From JAUWCW01 sp030609125 [NCBI: Candidatus Rokuibacteriota bacterium] (GTDB taxonomy: Bacteria; JAUVQV01): 5,077 bases of DNA. The stretch is taken from NCBI GenBank assembly GCA_030609125.1, contig JAUWCW010000176.1, forward strand, positions 1 to 5,077. Reading direction: 5' to 3'. The notes beneath the pieces are model-generated. The model searched no databases. It saw only the letters and a list, made by a program, of their open reading frames with translations, and was not told the origin of the DNA. Positions 460 to 5,077 of this stretch are shown here, in pieces (within the stretch, counting starts at the first letter, position 1; each line of letters begins with the position of its first letter). Made by a program: the position numbers and the translations under genes.

Positions 460-1734
460 GAGAAAACGGGAAGATTCATCACCGTGGCGGCGGCCCTGCT
501 TCTGGCCGGCGTCATCATCCAGGCGTGGCTCGGCAGCCGGGGCGGAATCGGCGGCGACCAGTACGTCCTTTTCGATCTCGGCCTCGACTACCTTGAGGAG
601 GGCGGGCTGAGCGCGGTGGGGAAGGGGATGTCCGGCGGTGGCTTCATCCCGGGATCGCTCCTTCAGCTTCTGATCGGCGTGCCCTTCTCCGTGTGGCGCG
701 ACTACCGCTCCCCGGTGGTTCTCATCGGGCTCTTTCACCTCCTCGCCGCCGTGGTGTCGACCCTGGCGGTGCGGCGGGCGGCGGGGCCGCGGGCGGCGCT
801 CTTCTTTCTCGCCCTCTGGTGGCTCTCGCCCTGGCGACTCTATCACTCCGGGATTCTCTGGGAGCCCGCCTACGTGGTTCTTCCGTCGGCCCTTCACCTG
901 GCGGCCTGCTGGGGGCTGCGGGAGAGGGCCGGGGCCCTCTGGTCGGCGCTTCTCGTCGCCACGCTCGTTCTGACATTCCAGCTTCACGGGTCCTTCCTCT
1001 TCCTCGTTGTGCTGACGGGGGTGCTTCTTTTCCGGAAGCTGATCCGGCTGCAGTGGGAGGGGGGGCTTCTCGGCGCCGCTGTCGGGGGGCTGACTCTGAT
1101 CCCCACGATGGCGGCCTTTTCCGCCGGGACGCTCCCCTCGCCGGCACCGTCGAATTCTTTCATCGGCTACGGACTGGTCACCGTGGCGCCGCTGATAAAG
1201 AGCTTCGTGTACTGGTTTCGCCTCGGATCCCTCGATATCGGAAGACGTCTCAAGGGAGTGGTTTTTCTCGAGGAGGGGTGGGCCGGCGCCGGCTCCCTGA
1301 GCATCTTCGTAAAGGGCGCCGCCGCGGCGCTCGTTCTCCTTGCCGCGGCGTCGATCCTGATAGCCCTGGCGGCGACGTGGTGGTGCTTCCGCCGTGACCG
1401 CCGGGGGGAGGGAAGGGCCGCCGGCTGGCTCTGGCTGCGCTCGTACGCGATGGCCGGGTTCGCCTCCCTTCTCATCTCCAGCGCTCTCTCGCCGGTGACC
1501 ATCCAGTCCTGGCACGTGCTGATCGTGCTGCCGGCGGCCTGCCTCCCCGTGGCCCTGTGGCTCGACGATCTGTGGCCTCCCGCAAGGGCCTGGCTGCGCT
1601 GGGCGCTGTTTCTCTTTCTGGTCCTGCGTCTGCCGCAGATGATTGTTGTGGGGACGGGGCACGAGGCGTACCGGCTCGACCCGAACATCGAATCGAAACT
1701 CCAGGAGCGCCAGAAGACGCTCCTGCCCAGATAG
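457..1734 (+). CDS. Polytopic inner-membrane protein, possible GT-C-fold glycosyltransferase
   Basis: The ATG at 457 overlaps the inhibitor stop (TGATG) and has AGGGGG at 447-452 with 4-base spacing. An in-frame GTG at 454 would lie almost on the ribosome site, so ATG is preferred, giving 425 residues. I count about 10-12 hydrophobic segments, near residues 6-25, 64-79, 86-105, 112-125, 138-153, 161-193 (probably two), 203-222, 284-308, 330-345, 353-369 and 380-397. After the first helix comes a loop with GGDQYVLFDLGLDYLEEG (33-50), then SGGGFIPGSLLQLL (59-72); WEP at 135-137 follows a short helix, and a polar tail (400-425) ends the protein. An acidic residue in the first external loop plus many helices resembles GT-C enzymes that use polyprenyl-phosphate sugars (ArnT/PMT type). 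I cannot confirm that fold, and the function is unknown. It is co-transcribed with a peptidase and its inhibitor, so a polytopic partner of that system is an alternative. Confidence 0.75.
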   Translation: MEKTGRFITVAAALLLAGVIIQAWLGSRGGIGGDQYVLFDLGLDYLEEGGLSAVGKGMSGGGFIPGSLLQLLIGVPFSVWRDYRSPVVLIGLFHLLAAVVSTLAVRRAAGPRAALFFLALWWLSPWRLYHSGILWEPAYVVLPSALHLAACWGLRERAGALWSALLVATLVLTFQLHGSFLFLVVLTGVLLFRKLIRLQWEGGLLGAAVGGLTLIPTMAAFSAGTLPSPAPSNSFIGYGLVTVAPLIKSFVYWFRLGSLDIGRRLKGVVFLEEGWAGAGSLSIFVKGAAAALVLLAAASILIALAATWWCFRRDRRGEGRAAGWLWLRSYAMAGFASLLISSALSPVTIQSWHVLIVLPAACLPVALWLDDLWPPARAWLRWALFLFLVLRLPQMIVVGTGHEAYRLDPNIESKLQERQKTLLPR

Positions 1735-1751
1735 ATCGTGACGGACACCGG
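1735..1751. other. Convergent intergenic gap of 17 bases
   Basis: This short gap separates the plus-strand membrane-protein stop (TAG, ending at 1734) from the minus-strand radical SAM stop (at 1752-1754). I see no GC-rich hairpin followed by a T run on either strand. Termination may therefore be Rho-dependent or lie inside the facing gene, and the two transcripts may overlap. Confidence 0.8.
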
Positions 1752-2828
1752 CTATTCAGCGATCGCCGCCGCGTCGAGACAGCGGGCAAGGCCCGCCGTC
1801 GAGCCCGGCGAGCGGCCGAGGGAGCTTCTCCAGACCTCGGGGCTCTCCATGCAGAGATAGACCTCCGCGTGCCTGTCCCGCCGCCTGATGTCACGGTACA
1901 CCCGCCGGTACATCTCTTCCCTCAGGGGGCGGAAGTACCGGAGCTTTCCGTCCAGGCCGGGGACGAGCTCTCCCAGGGGGAGGTGGCTGCCGGGGAAGCG
2001 TCTTCTGATGATGGCGTCCAGGGCGGGCGGGTAGCGCAGTGACCCGAGGCTGATCCAGGCGATGTCCCCCTCGCGAAGGTGGTCGTAGATCGCCTCTACC
2101 GCCCGGCTGTAGGATCTCTCCCACCCGGGAAAACGCACCAGGGGGTCGAAGTGAAGGCCGATCCGGTAGCCGGCCCGGCGTCCCTCGGCGGCGGCCCGAA
2201 GCCTTGCGGTGAGCGGCGGCGCACCCTTTTCGTCCGCCCGCACCACTTCCTCCGCATTGACGGACCAGGAGAGTATGACCCGGCCGCGGGGGTCGATGTC
2301 GAGCAGACTCTCGACGAAGGTCGTCTTCGTCTTGAGTTCCAGAACGGCCTCGGGCCTCCGGAGAACGCGGGGCACCAGTTCCCGCGCCATGTCGGTGAGC
2401 GGCTCCAGGGCAAGGCTGTCGGCGAGCTCGCCCGTGCCCAGGCGCACGACCCGCCCCGGGTGCTTTGCGATCAGCTCGTCAAGCTCCCGGAGAGCATCTT
2501 CCCAGTCGGCGTGTACCACGAGACAGGGCTGATTGAGATAGAGCTGGAGGATGCAGTAGGTGCAGTCCAGGGGGCATCCCGTCACCAGGTTCAGAACACG
2601 ATACCCGCAGCAGACGTAGGATGAGGTGCCGGGGCACCGCTTCAGGAGCCTGCCTTTGCGGGGAGTGATGAAGACGGTGTCTTTCGAATGCCCCTCGTCT
2701 CCGGGATCGACGGAGGGTCTGGCGGCGGTGACGACGGGGACGCCGGGACATTTTTCGACAACGGTCCGGGCCACGCTGCTGCCGGCGGCTTCCGGGTGGA
2801 TGGTGATCTTCCGGATGGGAAATCTCAT
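1752..2828 (-). CDS. SPL-family (spore photoproduct lyase-like) radical SAM protein
   Basis: The protein has 358 residues. The cluster motif CPLDCTYC at residues 85-92 is C85-X3-C89-X2-C92, the radical SAM signature that binds a [4Fe-4S] cluster and S-adenosylmethionine. It is preceded by YVCCGYRVLNLVTG and followed by LYLNQPC. Further SPL-family blocks are GTGELADSLALEPL (131-144), LELKTKT (163-169), LSWSVNAEEV (186-195), IGLHFDPL (223-230), WISLGSLRYPP (258-268) and VYLCMESPEVW (323-333). True spore photoproduct lyase repairs UV thymine dimers in spores using a cysteine hydrogen donor about 43 residues past the cluster. That region here is GTGELADSL, with no cysteine, so true SPL activity is doubtful and the substrate is unknown. 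Other cysteines are at 27, 65, 73, 74, 102, 326 and 350. Its ATG overlaps the ParB-like stop by ATGA, and GAGG sits only 2 bases from the start, so translation probably depends on coupling. The length is normal for the family. Confidence 0.85.
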   Translation of the reverse strand: MRFPIRKITIHPEAAGSSVARTVVEKCPGVPVVTAARPSVDPGDEGHSKDTVFITPRKGRLLKRCPGTSSYVCCGYRVLNLVTGCPLDCTYCILQLYLNQPCLVVHADWEDALRELDELIAKHPGRVVRLGTGELADSLALEPLTDMARELVPRVLRRPEAVLELKTKTTFVESLLDIDPRGRVILSWSVNAEEVVRADEKGAPPLTARLRAAAEGRRAGYRIGLHFDPLVRFPGWERSYSRAVEAIYDHLREGDIAWISLGSLRYPPALDAIIRRRFPGSHLPLGELVPGLDGKLRYFRPLREEMYRRVYRDIRRRDRHAEVYLCMESPEVWRSSLGRSPGSTAGLARCLDAAAIAE

Positions 2829-3787
2829 TTCCTCGGCGGCCGCTTCCCGGGCTCCATGAGGAGTTGAAAGGAGTCCTCCCGGCCGAGACGCTCCAGGCGG
2901 ACGAGGGCCTCCCCGTACTCCTTCTCACCGGAGGCGGAGAAGCGCACGTGAAGCTCGCCTTTTTCGAAAAAGGGGTGCGTTGTCACCTGGAAGCCGGGTG
3001 GGAGCCTGAGACGGCGGAGCAGACGCTGGAAGGCGCGTCTGCGGGCGGCGAGAGACGGGAAGCGGCGCTCCCTGAGGACCTGCAGGGCCGAAGCGCCGAA
3101 CTGGCCGTGGCGCCTGCGGGCCGCCCGGGAGACGGAGGCGAGAAGGGCGGGGACGGACGTTTCGTCCCGCACGGAGATGTCGGCGACGAGACGGGCCCAC
3201 TCCCGCTGCCGGCCGACGCTCAGGGACGCCTTCTTGAGAAAGCGGAAGGCGGAGCGACGCTCGCTTTCCCCGAGAGTCGCGAGATAGACCGCTGTTCCCA
3301 GAGTGATGGCGCCGTCCGCCAGGAGGTCGAGCATCGTGTCCGGAAGGTGAGCGACGGAAAGGTACGCTTCAAAGCCTCCCTCTCTGCGAGGCAGCCCGAG
3401 AAGGGGGAAATACCCGCTGACGATCTTCTGCGGCGAGAGACCCAGGTCGGCAAGCTGTCTCAGGGCCGTGCATCCCTCGGCGGGATTCAGGTTCCTGAAG
3501 GCACGGTTTTCGTGAAAGTTTCTCGACCAGGCCTGGAAGGGGGAAATCTCGTCCTCACCAAAGATTTGGGCCTCGACGTGCTTTCGGCCGAGCCGGCGCA
3601 GAGCCTGCAGGCGCCGGGCACCCCTGATGACGATGTAACGGCCTCCCTTGTTCAACAATTCGGGGGGATCGAGAAGGCCCACTTTTTCGATGGAAGCGGT
3701 GAGCTCCTCGAGGCCGCCTCCCCGGGAGAACGAAAAGCGCCGGTTCCGCCAGGCTACCCGGCTCAACGGAACAGCCGCCCTCTTCAC
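2825..3787 (-). CDS. ParB-like protein (ParB/Srx N-terminal domain, KorB-like middle region)
   Basis: The start is placed at GTG 3787-3785, giving 320 residues. This gives a 4-base GTGA overlap with the upstream stop and a GGGAGG ribosome site at 3800-3795 with 7-base spacing. A start at 3874 would overlap the glycosyltransferase by 91 bases and add a low-complexity leader. Residues 25-75 match the ParB N-domain: LEELTASIEKVGLLDPPEL, then YIVIRGARRLQALRRLG. The first CTP-pocket motif is GARR (56-59) where ParB usually has GERR. The next motif, ENRAFRNLNPAE (93-104), keeps the EN-x-x-x-R-x-x-NP-x-E pattern. Residues 105-180 resemble the ParB/KorB helix-turn-helix region, including LADLGLSPQKIV and LPDTMLDLLADGAITLGTAVYLATL. 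The C-terminal third is Arg-rich and not recognised. ParB proteins bind DNA and act as CTP-dependent clamps. No parA is adjacent, so a role in segregation is unsupported; a regulator or DNA-loading partner for the SPL-like protein is a guess. Confidence 0.8.
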   Translation of the reverse strand: MKRAAVPLSRVAWRNRRFSFSRGGGLEELTASIEKVGLLDPPELLNKGGRYIVIRGARRLQALRRLGRKHVEAQIFGEDEISPFQAWSRNFHENRAFRNLNPAEGCTALRQLADLGLSPQKIVSGYFPLLGLPRREGGFEAYLSVAHLPDTMLDLLADGAITLGTAVYLATLGESERRSAFRFLKKASLSVGRQREWARLVADISVRDETSVPALLASVSRAARRRHGQFGASALQVLRERRFPSLAARRRAFQRLLRRLRLPPGFQVTTHPFFEKGELHVRFSASGEKEYGEALVRLERLGREDSFQLLMEPGKRPPRK

Positions 3788-4620
3788 GGCGCCGCCTCCC
3801 GGGCAAGCTCCAGGTATCCTTCCGCCTCTTCCTCCCGGCCGCGGCGGCGGCTCCCCTCGGCGAGAATCCTGCATTTCTCTTCCAGCACGGCCCGGACCTC
3901 GCCCGCCTCTTCCGCGCTGAGACCCCCGTTGGCCGCTAGTGAGTGCAAGACTCTGACACGGAATCTATCGAGGCCCCAGATGGTTCTGGTCAGCTGATCG
4001 GGGTGCCCCCCACGCTTCACGACCAGCGGGCGCCTGATGAGATGGACGTCGTGCCTCCTCGCCAGGGCCAGCCAGAGGGCGTAGTCTTCACAGGCGGGGA
4101 GGGATTCGTCGAATCCTCCCGCCTCGTCGAAGACCGACCGCCGCAGGATGACCGATGAGGGGCTGATGAGACTCTCCCTGAGCAGCCTCATGAAGGCCCT
4201 CCCCTCCGCCTTGGCGTGCTTTTTCCGGGGGTTGACCCTCCTGCCGTTGCGGATCCATAGCTCCTCGGTATGGCAGACGGCGGCCTCGGGGAAGGTCCGC
4301 AGGTAGCTGAGCTGCACGGCGAGCTTCTCCGGCAGCCAGAGGTCGTCGGAGTCGAGAAAGGCCAGCAGTTCGCCTCCGGCGACGGCGGCACCGCTGTTGC
4401 GGGCCGCGCTGACGCCCCGGTTTTCCTGCCGGACAAGCCTGAGGCTGGCGGAATAGGGCTTGAGAGCGGCCACCGTATCGTCAGTGGAGCCGTCGTCGAC
4501 GACGATGAGCTCGAACTCGCCGCAGGTCTGGGAGACGACGGATTCCACTGCCTCCCGGACCATGCCTGACCGGTTGAAGGTGGGGATGATCACGGAGACG
4601 ATAGGCTTGCCGGAAGACAT
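3784..4620 (-). CDS. Family 2 glycosyltransferase (GT-A fold)
   Basis: This 278-residue protein transfers a sugar from a nucleotide-sugar donor to an unknown acceptor. It opens with VSVIIPTFNRSGMVREAVESVVSQT (8-32), the standard family 2 nucleotide-binding start. VDDGSTDDT is at 41-49, ENRGVSAARNSG at 66-77, and the metal-binding LDSDDLWLPEKL at 89-100. GGFDESLPACEDYALWLALA (168-187) carries the ED-Y-x-LW acceptor and catalytic-base block. There are no membrane helices, so it should be cytosolic or membrane-associated, as in O-antigen, capsule or protein glycosylation pathways. The C-terminal 60 residues are helical and charged (EEAGEVRAVLEEKCRILAEG and after). It begins the minus-strand operon and its stop overlaps the ParB-like start by 4 bases. 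ATG 4620-4618 has no strong ribosome site (a GAGAGA about 11 bases upstream only), but the family start pattern leaves little room for another choice. Confidence 0.92.
   Translation of the reverse strand: MSSGKPIVSVIIPTFNRSGMVREAVESVVSQTCGEFELIVVDDGSTDDTVAALKPYSASLRLVRQENRGVSAARNSGAAVAGGELLAFLDSDDLWLPEKLAVQLSYLRTFPEAAVCHTEELWIRNGRRVNPRKKHAKAEGRAFMRLLRESLISPSSVILRRSVFDEAGGFDESLPACEDYALWLALARRHDVHLIRRPLVVKRGGHPDQLTRTIWGLDRFRVRVLHSLAANGGLSAEEAGEVRAVLEEKCRILAEGSRRRGREEEAEGYLELAREAAP
3785..3800 (-). promoter_or_regulatory. Ribosome binding site that sets the ParB-like start
   Basis: On the minus strand GGGAGG (3800-3795) lies 7 bases before GTG (3787-3785), inside the last codons of the glycosyltransferase gene. 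The spacing is ideal. It supports a GTG start sharing GTGA with the glycosyltransferase stop. Confidence 0.75.
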
Positions 4621-4660
4621 ATTACGGGGTATCTCTCAGAGACTGCATGAAGTTTATCAG

Positions 4661-4683
4661 TTGTCAACAATGCCTGTTGAGAA
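4661..4683. repeat. Inverted repeat, 9-base arms, 5-base spacer
   Basis: TTGTCAACA (4661-4669) and TGTTGAGAA (4675-4683) are inverted copies differing at one of nine positions, separated by ATGCC. No T run follows on the minus strand and the stem is not GC-rich, so an intrinsic terminator is unlikely. It lies about 40-60 bases upstream of the glycosyltransferase start, a fitting place for an operator. Confidence 0.6.
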
Positions 4684-4709
4684 GGCCTGTAGATAACAAT
4701 ATTCATGGT

Positions 4710-4739
4710 GTAATATTAATATGTTGTGATACATATCAA
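4710..4739 (-). promoter_or_regulatory. Candidate promoter of the glycosyltransferase / ParB-like / radical SAM operon
   Basis: On the minus strand TTGATA (4739-4734, five of six to the -35 consensus) is followed after 18 bases by TATTAC (4715-4710, four of six to TATAAT). It would give a leader of roughly 80 bases and overlaps the dyad at 4722-4741. A perfect TTGACA (4667-4662, minus) also exists but has no acceptable -10 at 16-18 bases. This is a weak call made from consensus matching alone. Confidence 0.25.
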
Positions 4740-4741
4740 CA
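4722..4741. repeat. Second imperfect inverted repeat with the same half-site
   Basis: TGTTGTGATA (4722-4731) faces CATATCAACA (4732-4741). The TGTT/AACA and GATA/TATC parts pair if two extra bases in the left arm are looped out. It shares TGTTG/CAACA with the dyad at 4661-4683, suggesting two sites for one protein. It is also just downstream of the RACo-like stop on the minus strand, so a weak AU-rich terminator is possible. Confidence 0.45.
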
Positions 4742-4744
4742 GTT

Positions 4745-5077
4745 TTATCCTGGGAACGCAAGATTGTTGATAAACAGATTCTGAAAGTTACTGCTCTCCG
4801 CCATATGCCAGGTCTTCATCGCTTTGGAGATGCCGGCCGCACGGGTGAGGGAAGAGGGTTCGAGGAGACTGAGGGCGGCACCGGCCAGCGCGGCGTTTGC
4901 CGCCACTGAAACGATTTTCTCCCAGTTGGGAGCAATGATCCCGAGAGTGGAAAGGTTCCGGGGACGGAGGGAATACCCGAATCCGCCTGCAATTGTAACT
5001 GTCTGTATAAGCTCTGTTTTAAGCCGTGACTTGCGCAGCAGAAGCTGCCAGGCCGTGGCGATGGCCGAGACGGCGAG
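4745..5077 (-). CDS. RACo-like ASKHA-domain protein (corrinoid activation / DUF4445 type), C-terminal end only
   Basis: An open frame runs from the window edge at 5077 to TAA 4747-4745: 110 codons with no start needed because the gene enters from the right. It reads TVTIAGGFGYSLRPRNLSTLGIIAPNWEKIVSVAANAALAGAALSLL, with pieces IAGGFG (29-34), LSTLGIIAP (42-50), NAALAGAA (61-68), and ends in SNFQNLFINNLAFPG. In RACo-type activators the C-terminal ASKHA domain shows AGGFG, an A-x-x-IG-x-x-P segment, a GNAAL-x-GA block and a closing F-x-x-x-F-x-x-x-x-x-FP. Here GNAAL appears as ANAAL. These proteins use ATP to reduce inactive Co(II) corrinoid proteins of methyltransferase or acetyl-CoA pathways, and carry an N-terminal [2Fe-2S] domain not visible here. 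About 65 percent of third codon positions are G/C, lower than about 86 percent in the first 50 codons of the glycosyltransferase. Whether the next operon is read through from this gene is unclear. Confidence 0.78.
   Translation of the reverse strand, partial: LAVSAIATAWQLLLRKSRLKTELIQTVTIAGGFGYSLRPRNLSTLGIIAPNWEKIVSVAANAALAGAALSLLEPSSLTRAAGISKAMKTWHMAESSNFQNLFINNLAFPG

Follow-up and report, generated by a model that had tools for sequence, protein, structure and literature searches.

A three-gene locus and its recurrence

The window analysed here is a whole contig of 5,077 bases (JAUWCW010000176.1) from a Candidatus Rokuibacteriota bacterium, whose assembly comprises 2.3 Mb in 376 contigs. 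On its minus strand lie three genes with open reading frames that encode a glycosyltransferase, a ParB-like protein and a radical S-adenosylmethionine (SAM) protein related to spore photoproduct lyase (SPL), referred to as SPL-like (Table 1). The glycosyltransferase and ParB-like genes overlap by four bases (GTGA, 3784-3787), as do the ParB-like and SPL-like genes (ATGA, 2825-2828). The original prediction, made from the letters of the window, had described an overlapping operon at 1752-4620; its coordinates, strand and overlaps are confirmed and its three family calls hold, that of ParB_N by way of a 76-sequence profile and a structural model. The three genes very probably form one module. 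Their order recurs, they are co-inherited, and fusions with a nucleosidase-type domain occur; the catalytic signatures of SPL and ParB have been lost.

A ParB-like search of 145 genomes returned 15 nearly full-length relatives with 23-29% identity (L003-L017), flanked downstream by an SPL-like gene in 11 cases (31-47% identity) and upstream by a glycosyltransferase gene in seven (45-53%). GTDB genome contigs scanned with an SPL-like alignment (A1) gave at least 584 relatives, among whose named records are Desulfobacterota, KSB1, Omnitrophota, Acidobacteria and Aminicenantes. The best 80 of these were examined; they lean towards the paired subfamily, since the alignment was built from SPL-like genes beside ParB-like genes. 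Adjacency was counted at 71 of them, nine with less than 1.1 kb upstream being dropped (one of these, L055, does have a ParB-like gene). A ParB-like gene is located just upstream on the same strand in 46 of the 71, a glycosyltransferase upstream in 12 and both in nine, and in three a glycosyltransferase directly precedes the SPL-like gene without a ParB-like gene. At 22 of the 25 loci lacking an adjacent ParB-like gene the genome was queried: 16 carry one elsewhere at E ≤ 1e-28 (partial in G150), and six give none. The ParB-like/SPL-like pair hence persists without an adjacent glycosyltransferase, and in this sample it is not usually apart, as it should have been had the proposed link between the two been wrong. 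The set is not a chance one, because the same order of genes is found in genomes so distant from that of the window that the domain is the only taxonomic rank in common. Among 20 regions around relatives, no family apart from the three was common to more than three regions.

Co-inheritance was assessed in 386 genomes sampled irrespective of these genes, with E thresholds set by the analysts (SPL-like 1e-40, ParB-like 1e-28, glycosyltransferase 1e-70). SPL-like genes are present in 107 genomes, the glycosyltransferase in 74, ParB-like genes in 50 and all three in 36. Of the partners, the glycosyltransferase shows the strongest co-inheritance with SPL-like: 68 of the 74 genomes that have it also carry SPL-like (20.5 expected), with the two genes within 5 kb of each other in 23 and not in 45. 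At the family level, 49 of 55 glycosyltransferase families carry SPL-like versus 16.6 expected, a test that takes the largest family number seen (N = 259) as a lower bound and does not model phylogeny, the deviations being large. The glycosyltransferase had been regarded as a possible bystander; this does not stand, because it accompanies SPL-like in 68 of 74 genomes, 45 times at a distance. ParB-like and SPL-like occur together in 44 of the 50 ParB-like genomes (13.9 expected), equivalent to 44 of the 107 SPL-like genomes at the strict cut. ParB-like genes are undercounted, as diverged copies lie between the glycosyltransferase and SPL-like genes in L244-L247. Six of the 74 glycosyltransferase genomes and six of the 50 ParB-like genomes lack SPL-like; one of the latter (G237) nevertheless has a truncated SPL-like stretch beside its ParB-like gene (L201). 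Recurrence and co-inheritance bear out the earlier suggestion that the genes belong together. The phylum of the window's genome is represented by two sampled genomes; in the second, from the same order, no match to any of the three genes passes its threshold.

The glycosyltransferase contains a GT-A domain with a DXD-type motif, and it matches chondroitin synthase (3.5e-49). Relatives share 41-52% identity with the window protein, the family signature being ELWIRNGRRVN, LPACEDYALWL and KRGGHPDQL; DSDD and CEDY are invariant in nine aligned sequences. TIGR04283 is matched at 74 bits (cut-off 182). There is one match per genome in the 74 genomes, and among 16 chosen SPL-like genomes exactly one copy in 15, of which 12 are not beside SPL-like.

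Table 1 Features of the three-gene locus (window positions; pLDDT, predicted local distance difference test; aa, amino acids)
Feature	Position	Strand	Basis
GT2 (GT-A fold) glycosyltransferase, 278 aa	3784..4620	-	PF00535, 8.4e-34
ParB-like protein, 320 aa, GTG start	2825..3787	-	homologues; model pLDDT 95.1
ParB_N domain, residues 1-112, R-box GARR in place of GERR	3452..3787	-	structure match, alignment
Middle KorB/Noc-type helical domain, residues 113-205, recognition helix 138-146	3173..3451	-	structure match
C-terminal domain, residues 206-320	2825..3172	-	model pLDDT 91.3
SPL-like radical SAM protein, 358 aa	1752..2828	-	PF20903, 7.1e-26
CX3CX2C radical SAM cluster motif, C85/C89/C92	2553..2576	-	128/128 sequences
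GTGE motif, residues 131-134	2427..2438	-	alignment to 4rh0
Cys326 of YLCME motif	1851..1853	-	C326 in 124/128
Promoter-like site, candidate by consensus match alone	4712..4739	-	9/12 consensus matches

Loss of SPL and ParB catalytic signatures

Spore photoproduct lyase (SplB; PF20903, TIGR04070) is the sole PDB match of the SPL-like profile at E ≤ 0.01 (best 5.1e-39) and thus its only solved relative. The CX3CX2C motif and the position of Tyr96(Gt) are kept in all 128 SPL-like sequences. Unlike the lyase, the family has no hydrogen-donor cysteine. Glu134 of the GTGE motif aligns with Cys140(Gt)/Cys141(Bs), and the position holds 121 Glu, six Gln, one Asp and no Cys, a count that is biased for loci found by motif because the locus-finding motif contains GE; in the 51 sequences not found by the motif scan, the residues are 45 Glu, five Gln and one Asp. 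The relay position, Tyr98(Gt)/Tyr99(Bs), is Ile93 in the window and Tyr in 16 of the 128. In the B. subtilis lyase the hydrogen atom comes from this cysteine and the radical is passed on by Tyr99, according to the available part of PMC3742179. The curated equivalog TIGR04070 is matched at 103.1 bits against a cut-off of 400, and the C-terminal part with the YLCME motif falls outside the SPL alignment. Outside the radical SAM motif there is a second set of conserved cysteines, Cys65 and Cys74 (121/128 each) together with Cys326, which may bind a second cluster or include a thiol donor; Cys106 is the thiol donor of HpnH in the portion of PMC12583986 consulted. An SPL homologue is named for Nautilia profundicola in the accessible part of PMC2628731.

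Two groups of variants were observed. The SPL-like proteins of L039, L260, L264 and L276 lack Cys65 and Cys74 and keep Cys326; three of the four follow a fusion of a nucleosidase-like domain to the ParB-like C-terminal domain. Those of L248 (3612-5018), L249 (3184-4578) and L262 (5132-6445) are 437-468 amino acids long, with an N-terminal extension that weakly matches the C-terminal half of the ParB-like protein (~22 bits).

The ParB_N domain is recognized weakly from the single window sequence (0.0025, under the Pfam cut-off) and firmly from the 76-sequence profile (ParB 7o0n, 3.2e-26; Noc 7ng0, 1.6e-24). In the structural model, both the ParB_N and the KorB/Noc-type middle folds are present: the former matches PadC (6ryk_B; Z 11.6, root-mean-square deviation 1.9 over 95 residues) and the latter the Noc DNA-binding domain (6y93_B; Z 7.5, deviation 3.0 over 114 residues). 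The mechanical open reading frame begins at 3874; the GTG at 3787 agrees better with the homologue alignment. In fold the protein thus resembles the CTPase clamps ParB, Noc and KorB as well as PadC. It differs from them in the GERR motif, whose glutamate (position 57) acts in nucleotide hydrolysis and is found in none of the 76 ParB-like sequences. The remaining motif region is largely retained (G56 74/76, R59 73/76, N94 61/76, R98 63/76); a GERR-type motif is required for CTP binding in the part of PMC12207404 available, where its G and R were mutated. A further difference is the recognition helix, which lacks a conserved basic residue: the fraction of Lys or Arg is at most 0.38 over positions 113-152, with 0.61 at position 153 and 0.71 at position 111. 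The ParB_N fold also occurs outside DNA clamps, in the free-serine kinases SbnI/SerK and in sulfiredoxin (Z 5.3-7.7); here the sequence match is weak, and the comparison is one of fold, not of kinase residues.

The C-terminal domain, again unlike the clamps, has no PDB match at E ≤ 0.001 when searched alone (best Z 3.6), which does not in itself establish a new fold. Where a lineage has lost the ParB domain this portion remains, and it is also the portion fused to nucleosidase-like domains. In L051, L255 and L047 the C-terminal half is kept alone. Seven of 11 nucleosidase-linked loci have a degenerate ParB domain or none, versus nine of 68 others, a comparison that uses a 20-bit cut chosen by the analysts, includes related genomes and omits four of the 15 linked loci, which have no ParB-like gene.

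These findings bear on the original prediction of a nucleic-acid process, taken here as a DNA repair or modification module whose ParB-like clamp would recruit the SPL-like enzyme, together with a glucosyltransferase acting on bases, to DNA. Such a module would fit the retained ParB_N and KorB/Noc-type folds, the basic position 153, SPL as the only solved relative and a gene for an SNase-type nuclease downstream of SPL-like in Desulfobacterales loci. It is nonetheless improbable, given the missing donor cysteine and the rarely kept relay tyrosine, the absence of both the GERR glutamate and a conserved basic residue in the recognition helix, and the loss of the ParB domain in some lineages; moreover, the A1 scan found no relative in viral contigs, and there is one weak phage match. 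The module looks more like a radical-chemistry pathway on nucleosides and sugars. The earlier interpretation as a whole is partly supported.

Very improbable is a role of the ParB-like protein as transcriptional regulator of the other two genes, for which one may cite KorB and SbnI, ParB-fold proteins named as regulators in the molecule names of their structures. The part that is retained and fused is the C-terminal domain and not the putative helix-turn-helix, and the gene, which in the window overlaps both partners, is retained in genomes without such linkage.

No ParA family was found in the window by a general scan, and CbiA/ParA occurs in two of 106 same-strand neighbours; no genome-wide ParA search was made. 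In the window's own genome, the ParB-like query gives no second match at E ≤ 0.001; the chromosomal ParB is too distant for the query, absent or lost in the assembly. Three further readings were considered and rejected. For a phage origin, the A1 scan of viral contigs gave 28 pattern matches and no relative, besides the single weak phage match; for a plasmid origin, SPL-like has three weak matches in plasmids and ParB-like has none. As to a defence system, PADLOC gave no match at 0.01 for the glycosyltransferase or SPL-like and only E 0.003-0.005 for ParB-like.

Linked nucleosidases and neighbouring genes

In some lineages the module has a nucleosidase or phosphorylase as a fourth part. Such an enzyme is encoded on the module's strand, beside it or fused to it, in 16 genomes that belong to 11 families; the evidence for G236 is a fragment interpreted by eye, and G365 is above the Pfam cut-off. 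In L244, L245, L246 and L034 the gene immediately upstream of the glycosyltransferase encodes a protein of the PNP superfamily, and in L247 the two are fused (PF01048, 31.2 bits, above the cut-off). In L260, L264 and L276 a diverged nucleosidase-like domain replaces the ParB domain, being fused to the ParB-like C-terminal domain directly before SPL-like; the C-terminal domain of L260 was matched by a held-out ParB-like comparison at E 2.9e-5. A nucleosidase follows SPL-like in L268, L270 and L271, and methylthioadenosine phosphorylase (MTAP) precedes it in L265 and L266. No fusion of a nucleosidase to the SPL-like enzyme was seen among the loci examined. Types vary by lineage: MTAN is above its cut-off in L034 and MTAP in L265 and L266, and the others, below cut-off, are unassigned or resemble HpnG, which is the best NCBIfam match in L244, L246 and L268. 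Enzymes of these types have in common that they act on 5'-substituted adenosines.

No other family is as frequent as PF01048 among the 106 same-strand neighbours scanned (11/106); PurC and SNase come next with six each. The scan covered 106 of 132 candidates and left out proteins above 450 amino acids, those with unknown residues and two ParB-like pieces; L264, L265 and L266 had been picked on a suspected nucleosidase, and L265 and L266 are likely among the 11. Genomes have none to six PF01048 genes (75 checked). The 16 do not include opposite-strand genes of the PNP superfamily in the vicinity of the module (L042, L223, L202, L087, L101, L102), nor L082, on the same strand in a named record.

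PurC, SNase, NifU and 3HCDH neighbours were set aside as further parts, as they look like clade synteny of Desulfobacterota. At L107 (7136-7780) and 13 further loci, a protein cluster is encoded on the same strand downstream of SPL-like at a median of 1.0 kb. The member scanned is a nuclease of the SNase type whose match to an Ada-type zinc domain is below threshold, and the cluster probably represents clade synteny as well.

In the window, the promoter-like site is located in an AT-rich gap of 124 bases upstream of the glycosyltransferase gene; its consensus has one match in 1650-4850 versus 0.2 expected in shuffles. On the plus strand, positions 1-457 hold the last part of an M4 (thermolysin-type) protease and, after it, an Emfourin-family protein (PF20242, 2.2e-16), possibly a functional pair; positions 454-1734 encode a 426-amino-acid protein that is hydrophobic by eye and has no family match above cut-off. 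On the minus strand, the C-terminal part of a RACo-type corrinoid activator (4745-5077; PF14574, 4.1e-18) is broken off by the contig end.

Proposed pathway and alternatives

A 5'-substituted adenosine is what radical SAM enzymes release or attach, and adenosyl transfer, depurination and glycosylation are therefore proposed as the steps of the pathway. The SPL-like enzyme would form a 5'-deoxyadenosyl radical that adds to, or takes a hydrogen atom from, an acceptor. The nucleosidase, linked in some genomes and perhaps a housekeeping enzyme elsewhere, would strip adenine from the adduct or by-product, and the glycosyltransferase would glycosylate the resulting product. The C-terminal domain of the ParB-like protein would dock the radical enzyme, and the ParB domain would bind a nucleotide without hydrolysing it. 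This overall mechanism is put forward tentatively, as the leading candidate, and falls short of being probable.

Its logic of a radical SAM enzyme, a PNP-superfamily protein and a glycosyltransferase resembles that of hopanoid HpnH-HpnG with glycosyltransferases, as outlined in the available portion of PMC12583986, and HpnG is the best match at the three loci named above. Unlike true HpnG, these proteins reach 46-53 of 187 bits. No hopanoid genes were noted in the neighbour scans, one of which listed 25 of 120 families. The proposed adenosylation also has a counterpart in arsenosugar synthesis, where the radical SAM enzyme ArsS adenosylates arsenic (PMC12159101, in the part available). In contrast to that pathway, the three window proteins gave no match to an ArsS or ArsM model.

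A number of points weigh against the proposed pathway. Neither an HpnH nor an ArsS model is among the NCBIfam matches of the SPL-like protein. Of the SPL-like genomes, 31 of 107 show neither partner and 63 have no ParB-like gene at the strict cut, with absences that are soft since many genomes are fragmented assemblies. The nucleosidase-like domains of L260, L264 and L276 score 20.8, 20.8 and 23.4 bits, below the Pfam cut-off of 25.1, and that of L276 has no NCBIfam match at 1e-5. There is no nucleosidase beside the window genes, the two PF01048 genes of that genome being on other contigs, and most sampled genomes are likewise without a linked one. Where it is linked, the nucleosidase could merely clear 5'-deoxyadenosine, a by-product of many radical SAM enzymes.

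The last point is the core of the nearest rival, by which the radical SAM enzyme and the glycosyltransferase modify another acceptor (polysaccharide, lipid or peptide) by hydrogen abstraction, the ParB-like protein presents the substrate or regulates, and the nucleosidase only removes 5'-deoxyadenosine. The occurrence of MTAN and MTAP types in the linked set favours it, as both handle 5'-deoxyadenosine in general, and so does the scarcity of linked nucleosidases. The fusions tell against it: the nucleosidase is joined to the glycosyltransferase in L247, a diverged one is joined to the ParB-like C-terminal domain in L260, L264 and L276, and no fusion with the radical SAM enzyme was seen, which suggests a pathway step. 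Mere clearance is a possible account, only slightly less likely than the proposed pathway.

Hypermodification of tRNA or another RNA, in which the radical SAM enzyme would modify a nucleoside that the glycosyltransferase then glycosylates, agrees with a single-copy, broadly inherited glycosyltransferase. The patchy distribution (SPL-like in 107/386 genomes), the absence of RNA-binding families from the matches found for the three proteins and the linked nucleosidase, which is left unexplained, make it quite improbable.

Returning to the adenosyl-transfer pathway, a wider claim is that the ParB domain was co-opted from DNA segregation into a radical-enzyme complex, where it is interchangeable with a nucleosidase domain, and that the module makes an adenosyl-derived glycosylated metabolite in many bacteria. 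The co-option is suggested because the GERR glutamate is lost, the C-terminal domain has no PDB relative, the ParB domain is often lost in linked loci and it is replaced in L260, L264 and L276; the claim in full is doubtful.

In open-access full text, which includes few subscription papers and no preprints, no description of this gene set was found, in line with the earlier statement that no described system with this set was known. Nor does any family test assign the module to a known system. Between one fifth and slightly more than one quarter of the sampled genomes carry its genes (glycosyltransferase 74/386, SPL-like 107/386). Family libraries place the SPL-like protein with a DNA-repair lyase, but its residues contradict this. 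Genes that are hard to annotate singly thereby become one testable system. If the pathway reading is true, the module would have its logic in common with HpnH-HpnG, with different proteins, and would make a common bacterial metabolite for which no description was found; if the domain swap is true, a ParB domain would work in metabolism.

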